From NCBI GenBank assembly GCA_902762355.1, contig CACWNR010000013.1, positions 1 through 64,000 on the forward strand: a stretch of 64,000 nucleotides of DNA, in the 5' to 3' direction. The position numbers and the translations under genes were made by a program. The notes beneath the pieces were generated by a model, which was given only the letters and a program-made list of their open reading frames with translations, was not told where the DNA came from and ran no database searches. Positions 49,222 to 54,050 of this stretch are shown here, one piece after another. The DNA is from an uncultured Bacteroidales bacterium (GTDB taxonomy: Bacteria; Bacteroidota; Bacteroidia; Bacteroidales; Paludibacteraceae). The first letter of the stretch is position 1, and each line of letters begins with the position of its first letter.

Positions 49222-49332
49222 TTCGGCACATTTGTGCGAGTAACAAATATTTTAAGCAAAAACTCAAATACATTTGATTTTTCTCGTAAAAATCTTGTAT
49301 ATTCCAAATATTTGTAGTATCTTTGCACCCGA
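49222..49332 (+). repeat. promoter module, copy 2 (similar to 21039-21145)
   Basis: Starts GCACATTTGTGC and runs through the -33/-7 elements, aligning with copy 1 at most positions. Here it precedes no gene on the plus strand, only a palindrome and then the 3' end of the opposing CHAT gene. Confidence 0.6.
49295..49325 (+). promoter_or_regulatory. orphan promoter, possible small RNA start
   Basis: TTGTATATT (from 49295) and TATCTTTG (49318-49325), 23 bases apart. Downstream to 49427 there is no convincing reading frame. The transcript would contain the palindrome 49361-49406 and end near the T-run at 49420-49425. Confidence 0.5.
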
Positions 49333-49360
49333 ATTTGAAAACAACAGAAGTACCAACGGT

Positions 49361-49406
49361 GTAATGAACCCCAAAAGTTGAACAAAAAACTTTTGGGGTT
49401 CATTAC
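49361..49406. repeat. perfect palindrome with IS150-like terminal sequence
   Basis: Two 19-base arms, GTAATGAACCCCAAAAGTT and its exact complement, flank an eight-base loop. The arm resembles the ends of IS3-family IS150-group elements (TG..CTGA-CCCAAAAGTT-type, recalled from memory). It can be a terminator-like hairpin for the orphan promoter, a tiny MITE, or two IS ends left abutted. It lies 20 bases beyond the CHAT stop codon. Confidence 0.6.
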
Positions 49407-49426
49407 ATATGAGGTGACCCTCTTTT

Positions 49427-52400
49427 TTAGTCGAGCATGATGAAGCCTGCCCAGTAGATAGGTTCGCCATAAGCCTGGCGCACTTGGTTTTGGGCTTTGC
49501 GGAATGCTTCGCGTTTGGGAAGGCCGTTGGTTATCCAATAGCGGAAAAACTCCGTCATGAATAACTGCGTAGCCTGATCGCTCACAGGCCACAAGGACAT
49601 GATGATGGTACGAGCCCCCGCCATCTTAAAGGCACGTTGGAGTCCAAAGACGCCATCTCCGGTTATTTCTCCCTTACCTGTTTCGCAGGCAGAAAGAACG
49701 ACCAGATCTGCATCTCTAAGGTCGAGCAATGAAATCTCTTTAGCCGTCAAGATACCATCTTGTACTCCTTCAGGGAGATCGGCGCTATGTCCCTGCATCG
49801 CCAGGTTGGCGCCGGCAAAGAGCAAGCCGCAGCGGTTAAGCGGATCGATGGTCGGAGGAGCGGACATTGCATTATCCATACCAATCATTCGCTGTGAGAA
49901 ATAGTCCTTTTTCTGCGCCGTTGAATCCGTCCAGAAGAAGCCGTGTGTACCTATATGCAGGATGTTCTGATGCGTCCCGCTCAGAGCTTTGAACGACTCT
50001 TCGTTGGCGTTCGTGGAAGTGAACAACTGCACCTGCACATTACTCTTTTCGAGTATCTGTTGAATGCTATCCGCCTCTATTTTGGTGCCGGGCAGGTAGT
50101 CCACCGTACCACGATTGGTGGTATCGTTGTCTATTCCTCGCGAAGCGAGAAGACTCATGGTCGCGTATTGTTGACTTTGAGCGAGAAGCGTATCCGCTGT
50201 CACATCGTATTGGATTCCGCCGTACAGCACAGCCGTGGAGTTATCAGAATGGTCATGACGCGTCACGATCTCACGCGTAGAGGACACGCGCACAAGGTTG
50301 AACATATCTGCCATCGAATGGTTCTCATCGTACGGCAACGCCTCTATTGCCAACTGGTGCAATATACCGGTAGCTGCGAAATAAACCGTCTCGCCTTTCT
50401 TGAGATAGGGTAGGAGTTTGCTCCAGATGAGTTTAGAGAATTTCCGACCATTGGTGTCCTCGCTATACATATCGTTTGTACTCCAATCATCGGACATATC
50501 CCACATGGAAAGTGCCTCTTTTTCCTCAAACAGCGGAATCAGTTCGGGGTACTTACTATTTTTCCGCAGCAAGAGCGCACAATACATAGTGGAGTCTTCG
50601 CTCAAAGGAACAGACATAAATTCGATAGCAAGCTGATCTGATGTCAAATGATTGCGTACGCTGTCCCATGTTATGTTCCATTGCCTAATGTTATCGCGAT
50701 ACGTGGCACTGGCCTTGGTAATTTCCTTTTCTAATTGCTCAGCCTCCTGCTCGTATTGCGGCAAAGTGGTAGATAAAGGGTCTTTTTCTTGCAAAATCTC
50801 GATGGCTTGCTTTAAGGATGTTAGTTCGTTCCACCGCCCAATTAATGTGGTATCCTTACTTTCAAAGATAGATCGTTTGATGGCTTCTGTAGATTGTAAA
50901 AGCACGCCCTTCGCAAACAACTCGTTGTTATATGCAAAACTGGAAACAGATGGTCTATGAGAACAACATGTATAAGAGAACATGGGGGAAATCAATTGGA
51001 ATCTGTCTTTAATGGTAGCCCAATAGTGTTCGCGTTGTTTATCTGTCATGTAATTCAGCGTCTGAATATATCTGCTTTTTGAAATCTGGAGAACTTGAGT
51101 GAAGTAAAATTCAGCCTTTTCATCGTCTACTTGCTCGAAATACACCAATCCCAGACTGGTGAGAGTAATAGCATAATTCGGATGTGTTTCGCCATAAGCT
51201 GCTTTTGTCAATGTGCAGGCTTGCTTGAGATATGATTCGGCCTTGGCATAACTACGAATTCTACAATAAACGTTGCCTAAATTATGTAAGGTAGTAGCGC
51301 AATCAGGATGATCCTTTCCTAATACGGATCTTTTGATAGATAACGCCTGCAGAAAATAATATTCTGCTTGGGAATAATTTGCTCTATCATAATTCAGTTC
51401 TCCCAGCGCATTTAATGTGATGGCATAATCTATATGCTGTTTACCATATATTGCTTCTAGTGCATTCAATGCTTGCACGTAATATGATTCCGCTAGTGGA
51501 TAGTCTTCTTTTTGATTATAAAGGTTTCCTAAATTATGCAAACAAGTGGCGTATAACGGATGATTTTCGGTTAATGTATTTTTTGTGAGTGACAATGCTC
51601 GCAGGTAGTATGTCTCTGCTTGAGAAATATCTCCTATTGCAGAATATAATAGGCCTAAATTATTTAATGTATATGCATAACCGGAATGATTGCCTTCTAT
51701 AAGGCGTTGCCATATATCAGCAGATTGTAGAAGATATGTCTCTGCTTTGGCATATTCTCCCATTTCTATATATAGCCCTCCCAACACATTCAAACTCGTC
51801 GCATAGTCAAAATGCTCTTCACCTAATACCAACTTGCGGATAGCAACAGCATGTAATAGATAAGACTCCGCCTTGGCATAGTCTAACACCTTTATATAGA
51901 GTGTTCCTAAGTTATGTAAGGTTACCGCGTATTCGGGCGTATTCTCTCCGGACAGGTCATATTTGATATGTAGCGCTTGTAAATGGCAGGCTTCCGCTTT
52001 GGAGTATTCTCCGACATCCTGATAATGTGTGGCTAAGTTGCACAAAGTGATGGCATATTCTATACTATTTTCTCCATAATAACCCTTTTTTATTTCGAGT
52101 GATTGCAAATAGTATGCCTCTGCTTTTGAGAATTCTCCCAAGTCGTCATAAATGACACCAAAATCATTCAGTGATACGGCATAAGAAGGGTGGTTCTCTC
52201 CTAATATTCTTTTCTTAATATCTGCTGATAATTCAAGAAAATCCAATGCTAATGAATAATCTCCAATATAGCGCTGATAATACCATTGATCCTCACATTC
52301 TTTGGCAAAATATAGCATAAAACTATCCCGTAGAGATTCCTCTACGTTAAGCGAATCCAAGTAATGGTCAAAACCATAGGCTAACTCAATCTCATTGATA

Positions 52401-52576
52401 TAATCCGCTTCATTATCGGCATCGAAATACCAATCTTCTACGAATTGTATTTCTTGGGCGGCATCGGCAAATCGTCTCTGATTGACACTTTCAATCATTC
52501 TACGCCTGTAACTATCCTGTGCATAGATAACCTGACAAGCAAGCAACCAGAAACATATGATGATACCCCGCTTCAT
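49427..52576 (-). CDS. exported TPR-CHAT protein (caspase-like protease)
   Basis: A 1049-residue protein with a signal peptide (WLLACQVIYAQ). Residues 120-497 are nine near-perfect 42-residue TPRs of the kinesin-light-chain type, each with the IKK..LGENHP.YA.TLHNLG..Y...GDY.KAE.YYLQAL pattern. A helical linker (about 500-660) leads to a CHAT domain with both catalytic residues, His878 in ILHIGTHGFF and Cys964 in VLSACETGKGE, so it should be an active cysteine protease of the caspase/separase clan. The TPRs probably bind a partner. It is six bases after a trypsin-like protease gene, so the two form a dedicated operon. Substrate and trigger are unknown. Most CHAT-TPR proteins are cytosolic; the signal peptide makes this one periplasmic or secreted. 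Confidence 0.9.
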   Translation of the reverse strand: MKRGIIICFWLLACQVIYAQDSYRRRMIESVNQRRFADAAQEIQFVEDWYFDADNEADYINEIELAYGFDHYLDSLNVEESLRDSFMLYFAKECEDQWYYQRYIGDYSLALDFLELSADIKKRILGENHPSYAVSLNDFGVIYDDLGEFSKAEAYYLQSLEIKKGYYGENSIEYAITLCNLATHYQDVGEYSKAEACHLQALHIKYDLSGENTPEYAVTLHNLGTLYIKVLDYAKAESYLLHAVAIRKLVLGEEHFDYATSLNVLGGLYIEMGEYAKAETYLLQSADIWQRLIEGNHSGYAYTLNNLGLLYSAIGDISQAETYYLRALSLTKNTLTENHPLYATCLHNLGNLYNQKEDYPLAESYYVQALNALEAIYGKQHIDYAITLNALGELNYDRANYSQAEYYFLQALSIKRSVLGKDHPDCATTLHNLGNVYCRIRSYAKAESYLKQACTLTKAAYGETHPNYAITLTSLGLVYFEQVDDEKAEFYFTQVLQISKSRYIQTLNYMTDKQREHYWATIKDRFQLISPMFSYTCCSHRPSVSSFAYNNELFAKGVLLQSTEAIKRSIFESKDTTLIGRWNELTSLKQAIEILQEKDPLSTTLPQYEQEAEQLEKEITKASATYRDNIRQWNITWDSVRNHLTSDQLAIEFMSVPLSEDSTMYCALLLRKNSKYPELIPLFEEKEALSMWDMSDDWSTNDMYSEDTNGRKFSKLIWSKLLPYLKKGETVYFAATGILHQLAIEALPYDENHSMADMFNLVRVSSTREIVTRHDHSDNSTAVLYGGIQYDVTADTLLAQSQQYATMSLLASRGIDNDTTNRGTVDYLPGTKIEADSIQQILEKSNVQVQLFTSTNANEESFKALSGTHQNILHIGTHGFFWTDSTAQKKDYFSQRMIGMDNAMSAPPTIDPLNRCGLLFAGANLAMQGHSADLPEGVQDGILTAKEISLLDLRDADLVVLSACETGKGEITGDGVFGLQRAFKMAGARTIIMSLWPVSDQATQLFMTEFFRYWITNGLPKREAFRKAQNQVRQAYGEPIYWAGFIMLD

Positions 52577-52582
52577 GGATCC

Positions 52583-53995
52583 TTACATCTTATATCTGTA
52601 GCGGCCTTCTTTGTCGGCAAAGAAATAGGCTGAACCGGCTATTTTGATGCGATAGACATCGATATCGGTCTCGCGGAGACGGTCTCTCAATCCGTCGGGC
52701 ATCTCGCCGTAGAACTTATAGCCCTTCTCATAACAAGCTACCATTCCTTTTTCGGTCACACACGCTGCCCAAAGGACACCATATTCCTCCGCACCCTCTT
52801 TGAGCCAGTTCGTGATACGCGAATCGGACGAAGCATAGTGCTCCGTAGTGATGACAATCCAATCGCCGGCATCGTTGAAAGTGACGGAAGTGACCTCTTC
52901 ATTGCGTGCGTTGTAATCACGGATCTTGTTCTCCAACGACTTAGGAATACCCGACCAGCGGAAACCGTTATTACCGTACAGGATAATCCAGTTGCCGTTT
53001 TCCGTCAACTGCACATCCGAGATGTATTTGTCGTCTTCGTTGAGTTCATGCAGCGCATTGGATAACTCTTTGGGGAGGCCTGAACCAGCCCAACCGTTGC
53101 GGCCGTGCAGCGCCAAATCGCCGTTTCGCTCGGTGATAGCTACATTACGACACTCGCCCCATTGGGTGATACATTCGCGGATGTACGAACGTCCCTCACC
53201 GGTGACGGTAGTGCCGTTATTGTTAGAGCCCGAACCAGAACCGGGACGCGGCATGGTGACGTTTCGCTCGGTAGCTGTCTGCGGCCGCGCGGCAGAACGC
53301 ATAGAGCACTCCATGTAGCAAACGAGGTCTTTCACCTTTTTTACTTTCTCCGGCAGACTGAGCGACTGCAAGCGATTGACGGTCGGCAGCACACCGCTCG
53401 AGTTAGACAGACGGCGAACCAGCGAAGCAAGATACGATGCTTTCACCGCATAATTGGCGTTCTCGGCCTGCCTGTGTTTCGCACATACAACACCGATGAT
53501 ATTACCTCGGTCATCAAACAAAGGTCCACCGCTGTTACCCGGTTGAATAGGGGCAGATATCTGATAGAGTGAGGGATCGCCTCCGTATCCGGAATGGGCG
53601 GAAATGATACCGTTGGTTAACTTGATCTCATCGCCCATGGTGTCCGTGAGCGGATAGCCAAGCACGAAGACCGACTCGCCGACGTCTGCCAGAGAAGTCT
53701 TGACGGCATATGGCAGTTCGCCGAAACCGGGGAAGGAAGGAGAGGTGATTCGCACCAACGCCAAGTCATGTTCCTCATCCATCAATACCACTTCGGCATC
53801 GTATTCGAACAGTTTACCGTCACGCTGGAATTTACAAACGATAGAACGTGCGTTCTCAATGACATGGTGGTTGGTTACCACATATCCGCCATTCAACGCC
53901 CAACCTGTTCCTGACCAAGACTGCGCATAAGAAGTGAGTACGCAACAAAAAGAACCGAAAATGACCGCAAAGAGGGTCTGAAGTATCCTTTTCAT
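52583..53995 (-). CDS. exported trypsin-like serine protease with C-terminal repeats
   Basis: A 470-residue protein with a signal peptide ending in SYAQ. The S1C/DegP-like protease domain has an intact triad: His44 (VTNHHVI), Asp77 (EEHDLALVRI) and Ser155 (QPGNSGGPLF). No PDZ domain follows. Instead, after a Cys-containing and Ser/Gly-rich linker (about 220-265), residues 270-470 hold four or five repeats of roughly 50 residues around V.LTENGNWIILYG.NGF.WSGIPK, a beta-rich sensor or propeller-like part. It is first in the operon with the TPR-CHAT gene; one may cleave and activate the other. That is a hypothesis from gene pairing. Confidence 0.88.
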   Translation of the reverse strand: MKRILQTLFAVIFGSFCCVLTSYAQSWSGTGWALNGGYVVTNHHVIENARSIVCKFQRDGKLFEYDAEVVLMDEEHDLALVRITSPSFPGFGELPYAVKTSLADVGESVFVLGYPLTDTMGDEIKLTNGIISAHSGYGGDPSLYQISAPIQPGNSGGPLFDDRGNIIGVVCAKHRQAENANYAVKASYLASLVRRLSNSSGVLPTVNRLQSLSLPEKVKKVKDLVCYMECSMRSAARPQTATERNVTMPRPGSGSGSNNNGTTVTGEGRSYIRECITQWGECRNVAITERNGDLALHGRNGWAGSGLPKELSNALHELNEDDKYISDVQLTENGNWIILYGNNGFRWSGIPKSLENKIRDYNARNEEVTSVTFNDAGDWIVITTEHYASSDSRITNWLKEGAEEYGVLWAACVTEKGMVACYEKGYKFYGEMPDGLRDRLRETDIDVYRIKIAGSAYFFADKEGRYRYKM

Positions 53996-54019: not shown

Positions 54020-54050
54020 CAAAAGTACTAAAAATAAATGATATATGCAA
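54020..54050 (-). promoter_or_regulatory. promoter of the trypsin-CHAT operon
   Basis: Minus strand TTGCATATAT (54050-54041) and TACTTTTG (54027-54020), 23 bases apart, about 25 bases before the ATG at 53995. Confidence 0.8.

Follow-up and report, generated by a model that had tools for sequence, protein, structure and literature searches.

Exported trypsin-like and TPR-CHAT proteases of Bacteroidales as a possible input to an ECF sigma factor switch

Background

Proteases carrying tetratricopeptide repeats and a CHAT domain (TPR-CHAT), S1 proteases and caspases are already known to be linked to sigma/anti-sigma control, and the gene pair considered here would belong to an exported Bacteroidales variant of this theme. 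The pair, encoding a trypsin-like and a TPR-CHAT protease, lies in a stretch of 64,000 nucleotides (hereafter the window) from an uncultured Bacteroidales bacterium of the Paludibacteraceae (assembly GCA_902762355.1, contig CACWNR010000013.1, positions 1 to 64,000). In the type III-E CRISPR system Csx29-Csx30-CASP sigma, a TPR-CHAT protein is reported to cut the inhibitor of an extracytoplasmic function (ECF)-like sigma factor, whose release has been proposed, and DegS is an S1 protease acting on an anti-sigma factor (both from the accessible part of PMC10028731). RsgI9 of Clostridium thermocellum is an anti-sigma factor with an S1C protease-like periplasmic domain, for which autocleavage is cited (PMC12203970, in part). 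A 2012 account noted that C14 metacaspases of Myxococcus and others share operons with sigma-70 genes. These operons belong to other phyla, and the available portion of that account does not describe CHAT, trypsin or a transmembrane (TM) anti-sigma in them (PMC3501461). The EACC2/caspase systems join a caspase to an ECF sigma and a TPR neighbour; they are built on EACC/EAD adaptors, with no exported TPR-CHAT protein in the portion of the source available (PMC8195603). Full-text searches of a limited literature collection listed no paper on exported CHAT/caspase/trypsin modules with an ECF sigma in Bacteroidales, nor of a Bacteroidota trypsin-anti-sigma fusion.

The reading that we favour, with a probability of roughly 40%, is that periplasmic proteases feed an ECF sigma switch and that the window pair represents one part of a modular set of exported proteases. 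Relatives of the two proteins recur with a C14 caspase, a lipoprotein with a PPC domain and an ECF sigma/anti-sigma-like gene pair. These recurring neighbours suggest a role in signalling no less than one in defence.

Domains and comparison with described proteases

The trypsin gene (52583..53995, minus strand) encodes a 470-aa S1 protease (Trypsin_2 at 2.8e-27), with a signal peptide at about residues 1-24, the protease domain at 29-169 and a C-terminal repeat domain at about 273-470. It is followed after 6 bases by the TPR-CHAT gene (49427..52576, minus strand; 1049 aa). This second protein carries a signal peptide at about residues 1-19, 42-residue TPR units at about 109-500, which appear in the DNA as a regular 126-bp spacing, a linker at about 500-700 and the CHAT domain at 711-1047 (8.7e-51). 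Both assignments come from the open reading frame (ORF) list, Pfam and a residue check. The catalytic sites reported in an earlier note on this DNA are complete and lie in the following sequence contexts: the triad H44/D77/S155 within TNHHV, HDLAL and GNSGG, and the dyad H878/C964 within GTHG and LSACETG. The nine TPRs of that note correspond to nine TPR_12 stretches in Pfam. Both N-termini are signal-peptide-like as read from the sequence and satisfy a crude hydropathy rule, in agreement with the same note, and both proteins look exported. Its repeated trypsin C-terminus is upheld for one clear repeat (units 0 and 1 score 77, reached by 0 of 1000 shuffles), whereas similarity between the remaining units is lower or no better than chance. 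The repeat domain also stands alone in an exported-type protein of 228 aa (L077:5324-6010, genome G036), for which neither Pfam nor NCBIfam gives a match at E≤0.01.

With its TPRs and the His/Cys dyad of its CHAT domain the window protein resembles Csx29 of Craspase, and in relatives TPR-CHAT proteins are likewise encoded with an ECF sigma and a putative inhibitor. However, Craspase is cytosolic, activated by RNA and associated with Cas7-11, whereas the window proteins have signal peptides, no Cas7-11 (gRAMP) is present among eight scanned window neighbours, and no CRISPR-type array appears among the 20 repeat families listed, out of 22, for 44-60 kb. The relatives of the pair differ further in having a TM anti-sigma-like protein. 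The trypsin resembles DegP/DegS and RsgI9 by sequence: it shares the S1 (Trypsin_2) domain and triad of HtrA/DegS, matches DegS models and chains, and matches the RsgI9 chain 7sjy at 3.6e-14. As in the DegS-RseA-sigmaE pathway, a periplasmic S1 protease would have a TM anti-sigma as its target, a feature of DegS that is conjectural here. DegS itself is membrane-anchored. Unlike DegS, the window trypsin has no PDZ domain (Pfam scan, E≤1), and it is accompanied in its set by CHAT and caspase proteins. RsgI9 belongs to the Sigma-I system of a Firmicute and itself has no known sigma partner, whereas an ECF sigma gene immediately precedes the Bacteroidota fusions described below.

A recurring module with sigma and anti-sigma-like genes

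The genus sample comprised 101 genomes including that of the window, an assembly of 1.94 Mb that is 76% complete, and 80 fetched neighbourhoods (four sets of 20) were annotated for recurring genes. The genes are labelled SIG (ECF sigma), ANTI (anti-sigma-like TM protein), TRYP (trypsin), C14 (caspase) and PPC (PPC lipoprotein). CHAT is the most frequent (64 genes in 29 genomes), followed by exported-type C14 (21 in 20 genomes) and trypsins of the window's subfamily (20 in 18 genomes). SIG is rare (one gene in each of 18 genomes at E≤1e-6), and 17 of the 18 adjoin ANTI. At least one of the three proteases lies within 8 kb of 15 of the 18 SIG genes; seven of the 18 (and 10 of the 21 C14) were search seeds, and 8 of the 11 non-seed SIG genes are near a protease. 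C14 is found within this distance of 13/18 SIG genes (random mean 0.12, maximum 2 in 2000 trials) and CHAT of 9/18 (random mean 0.24, maximum 3 in 2000 trials), under a null that scatters genes at random and ignores kinship. CHAT genes at contig ends may be missed by this count, as for the CHAT beside the SIG of G071. For all 8-kb statistics, four small CHAT fragments were dropped, and two CHAT pieces (G021) and two C14 pieces (G142) were merged. The three SIG genes with no protease nearby are those of G048, which adjoins ANTI and a lipoprotein, G046, which adjoins ANTI, and G050.

Gene order varies around the SIG-ANTI core. Same-strand orders of the whole set include TRYP>SIG>ANTI>PPC>C14>CHAT (G005), C14>SIG>ANTI>PPC>TRYP>CHAT (G026) and SIG>ANTI>TRYP>C14>PPC>CHAT (G071). 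Shorter versions read SIG>ANTI>C14>CHAT (G014, G021, G124, and G061 with a stop inside C14), C14>SIG>ANTI>CHAT (G063) and SIG>ANTI>CHAT (G057, G040). The ECF family model TIGR02937 gives the SIG of L073 an E-value of 7.5e-10 and 38.7 bits, below its cut-off of 42.9; the SIG of L195 and L110 exceed the Pfam Sigma70_r2 cut-off. ANTI has one TM segment between residues 67 and 114 in all nine proteins listed, and five of seven match the NCBIfam anti-sigma family NF052375 (listed at E≤0.1), the best at 7.7e-5. By the crude hydropathy rule, genus ORFs have signal-peptide-like starts in 38/42 CHAT, 21/23 C14, 13/13 trypsins and 9/9 lipoproteins, and in 0/16 SIG and 0/16 ANTI. The ORF picking missed some genes found by search, namely the SIG of G142 and G049 and the ANTI of G046.

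Recurring third neighbours, which the earlier note proposed to list, do exist in relatives: C14, the PPC lipoprotein and the SIG-ANTI pair. Its statement that no effector is adjacent is true of the window neighbours scanned.

The promoters of the operons were compared in 24 hand-picked leaders. A housekeeping-type motif, TTG-N18-24-TAnnTTTG, is present in 15 of them, the window's included (0.37 expected from shuffles), with 8/11 in sigma-containing operons and 7/13 in protease operons without sigma. No common ECF-type promoter was seen by eye; the housekeeping-type motif was found instead. Because the leaders of protease operons carry such motifs, their sequences hint that the proteases may be inputs and not sigma-dependent outputs.

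A single clade of sigma-linked CHATs is not supported: to separate them from the CHASE2-linked and window rows, the tree requires 3 changes. The sigma-linked CHATs are nonetheless clustered (1 of 500 shuffles is as low), with 42 of the 64 tree rows in no group. The CHASE2-linked CHATs represent a second type of neighbourhood (L072, L074, L094, L212), in which CHAT is accompanied by a CHASE2 sensor gene and by a gene for an exported protein of about 280 aa; the fetched stretches of these four loci contain no sigma gene. Exported TPR proteins of one family are also found near trypsin or CHAT (L071:2502-4538, L064:2555-4603, L074:15119, L091:17126). That of L071, the only member scanned with Pfam, has a retropepsin-like aspartyl protease domain and is perhaps a fourth protease class. 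In L199-L202, C14, SIG and ANTI occur without CHAT and are followed by a run of exported genes, which in L200 includes an FGE-sulfatase-type protein and a second C14.

Protease partners are exchanged

The strict trypsin-CHAT pair is not a conserved unit, an outcome that the earlier note had itself named as counting against its proposal. Only 5/20 trypsins have a CHAT within 8 kb (random mean 0.26), and 58/64 CHAT genes have no subfamily trypsin within that distance. A search with the trmB-type protein encoded beside the pair matched 55/61 genomes; among the best 30 of these, whose loci were fetched with about 1.5 kb of flank on each side, CHAT lies beside trmB in the window alone. Co-location of the proteases exceeds random placement all the same: 6/20 trypsins have a C14 within 8 kb (random mean 0.07) and 14/21 C14 have a CHAT (random mean 0.35). 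The proteolytic cascade proposed in the note is therefore still reasonable in view of this co-location and of the apparent export of the proteins, although not as a fixed pair.

The four trypsins nearest to that of the window (G043, G044, G132, G140; clade support 100/98) all share its repeat C-terminus. Among the five, only the window and G132 (L207) trypsins share an operon with a CHAT, in G132 together with C14, and the G132 CHAT sits elsewhere in the CHAT tree. Downstream of the G043 trypsin gene lie C14 and the PPC lipoprotein, and neither is present on the 4.9- and 13.5-kb contigs of the other two (G044, G140). The partners of these trypsins are thus exchanged and not fixed. The window's own genome has a second protease locus (L084:9350-13008, contig C6) with C14, a 173-aa ORF and CHAT. 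The ORFs near it are similar to the neighbours of the repeat-type trypsin in G043, G140 and other genomes; from their motifs we take them to be FtsE-, shikimate kinase- and IspF-like.

Other families and anti-sigma-trypsin fusions

Comparable operons exist outside the genus, with the orders C14>SIG>ANTI>CHAT (G102) and SIG>ANTI>CHAT (G101). Of 25 CHAT loci from other families, 7 contain SIG or ANTI, compared with none of 20 arbitrary loci taken from these genomes (Fisher p 0.011), both samples being hand-picked, the former with several loci from one genome (four from G098, two each from G118 and G094) and one, L222, without CHAT by profile. A scan of 80 loci from named genomes for CHAT, C14, SIG and PPC found only SIG, and this in a single locus, L110 of Sphingobacterium detergens. 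Here an anti-sigma-like N-terminus, a TM segment and a trypsin form one protein, encoded behind an ECF sigma gene.

Fusions of this architecture (an N-terminal stretch, one TM and a trypsin of the subfamily) occur in 20/296 Bacteroidota genomes from several families (L236-L255), as 19 near-full-length matches and one partial match in G396 (90-371). In each of the 20 fetched loci the gene immediately upstream, in the same orientation, encodes an ECF sigma. The catalytic His, Asp and Ser are invariant across 20 aligned rows (alignment A6, without G396 (L243) and with L110 added). NF052375 matches 6/20 fusions at E≤0.01, the best at 2.9e-6, and zf-HC2 matches one at 0.0026. In the trypsin tree the fusions form one clade (96/89) and the nine module rows including the window another (96/99), both inside a single Bacteroidota subfamily split from the HtrA rows (98/99).

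Proposed mechanism and alternatives

From the domains, catalytic residues, export signals read from sequence, co-location, sigma/anti-sigma-like operons and fusions observed above, the following mechanism may be proposed. The Bacteroidales set, in which a PPC lipoprotein joins an S1 trypsin-like enzyme, a C14 caspase and a CHAT protein that often carries TPRs, would sense an envelope signal and relay it by proteolysis. The signal would engage the TPR arms, as putative sensors, or the C-terminal repeats of the trypsin. CHAT, caspase and trypsin would then be activated, perhaps in series, the first to act being a matter of conjecture. Where the module is complete, the periplasmic proteases would cut the periplasmic part of ANTI, the presumed one-TM anti-sigma factor, as a site-1 step, and general proteases would complete its destruction and free the ECF sigma. 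The orphan pair of the window would work on an unlinked or unassembled partner. Its switch may lie in the quarter of the genome absent from the assembly, its target may be another anti-sigma, or the protease set may have a role of its own.

Several observations weigh against this reading. The main weakness is that the window supplies exported proteases of the family, while no dedicated SIG or ANTI was found in it or in its own genome (no SIG at E≤1e-6, no ANTI at E≤1e-4), an absence that is unproven because the assembly is incomplete. Only 3/20 trypsins have SIG within 8 kb, and six genomes (G000, G022, G043, G044, G132, G140) have a module-type trypsin and no SIG, which means that the proteases occur without a sigma switch as well. 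The anti-sigma assignment is weak: Pfam calls no such domain in ANTI, the ANTI profile reaches just 4/20 fusion N-termini, and the one NF052375 score shown, for L110, is 17.8 bits where the cut-off is 100. In the trypsin tree, a direct sister relationship between the fusions and the window's trypsin clade is not supported. Outside the genus, sigma and CHAT genes lie on opposite strands in four loci and hence not in one operon, and signal-peptide-like starts (13/19 CHAT ORFs) are less general than in the genus. Finally, a housekeeping motif is compatible with an additional ECF-type promoter, and the 24 leaders were compared with shuffles, not with other genes.

The proteases could instead be the output of the switch, an ECF sigma, where present, turning them on under envelope stress so that exported S1, CHAT and C14 enzymes act on proteins of the periplasm or surface, processing or destroying them. 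The co-direction of sigma and anti-sigma-like genes with proteases in most genus loci, a layout usual for autoregulated ECF operons, is consistent with this, and several protease classes plus the nearby TPR-aspartyl protease of L071 would suit a degradation battery. It is nevertheless somewhat unlikely given the housekeeping-type motif on 15/24 leaders, the window's too, and the anti-sigma-like-trypsin fusion, which places the protease in the sensing arm. Exported proteases acting on the input side would be the simplest explanation that uses the fusion, the operons and the leader motifs together.

Ordinary periplasmic processing by two unrelated exported proteases, adjacent by chance and serving quality control or feeding, would explain why the strict pair is not conserved and why the S1 domain resembles HtrA-type quality-control enzymes. 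The lack of a PDZ domain, the well-supported branch (98/99) that splits the subfamily from the HtrA rows and the above-random co-location of trypsin with CHAT and C14 argue against it, and we consider it unlikely. Still less probable is an exported cousin of the immune trypsin/caspase cascades, in which the TPRs would sense an attacker and CHAT or the caspase would cut a death effector. Its patchy distribution and shuffled gene order would fit, as would the FGE-sulfatase-type gene and second C14 at one C14-SIG-ANTI locus (L200). Described trypsin/caspase conflict cascades are mostly cytosolic, however, whereas the window proteins look exported; none of the eight scanned neighbours is a gasdermin, which sets the pair apart from gasdermin-linked proteases, or a nuclease or conflict-type NTPase (not every window ORF was scanned). 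Matches in PADLOC are limited to TPR models for the TPR-CHAT protein and, for the trypsin, to the protease-domain parts of the RT-Protease_XI, LmuA, Avs1b, PDC-M35A and HamA models. Caspase, CHAT and trypsin domains do co-occur in conflict systems according to the accessible parts of PMC8195603 and PMC10907252, the latter mentioning one secreted sensor.

Flanking sequences

On one side of the pair a trmB-type gene forms a plus-strand tandem with GldH- and PSP1-type genes, and on the other lies an EamA transporter gene; the eight scanned neighbours are all housekeeping-type genes. The motif TTG-N20-TACTTTTG (54020..54050, minus strand), presumably of the Bacteroidota housekeeping promoter consensus, spans -55 to -25 from the trypsin ATG and ends 24 bases 5' of it. 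Of the earlier description of two genes six bases apart under one promoter, the gap is exact and the single promoter is predicted from this one motif before the trypsin gene. A palindrome with 18-bp arms (49362..49405, no strand assigned; fold z-score -6.89) between trmB (plus) and the CHAT gene (minus) is likely a two-way terminator. A small RNA at 49330-49420 was rejected, its Rfam matches being microRNA hairpins far under the gathering scores. In the gap before the palindrome, a promoter-like TTG-N20-TATCTTTG was spotted by eye (window 49295-49325, plus strand); the next plus-strand ORF (101 aa at 49599) is antisense to the CHAT gene.

Implications

These results address two questions, the roles of bacterial caspases and CHAT proteases and the control of most Bacteroidota ECF sigmas; class I anti-sigma domains lie beside just 6% of Bacteroidetes ECFs in the portion of the survey available (PMC7406223). 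A broader generalization, which we regard as doubtful, is that in Bacteroidota periplasmic caspase-fold (CHAT, C14) and DegS-like proteases are dedicated triggers of ECF sigmas, an "outside" counterpart of Craspase, and that in other orders the switch has collapsed into the anti-sigma-TM-trypsin protein. The operons and fusions listed here constitute small, defined gene sets for direct tests of both questions. They suggest that protein cutting outside the membrane may switch on genes inside.

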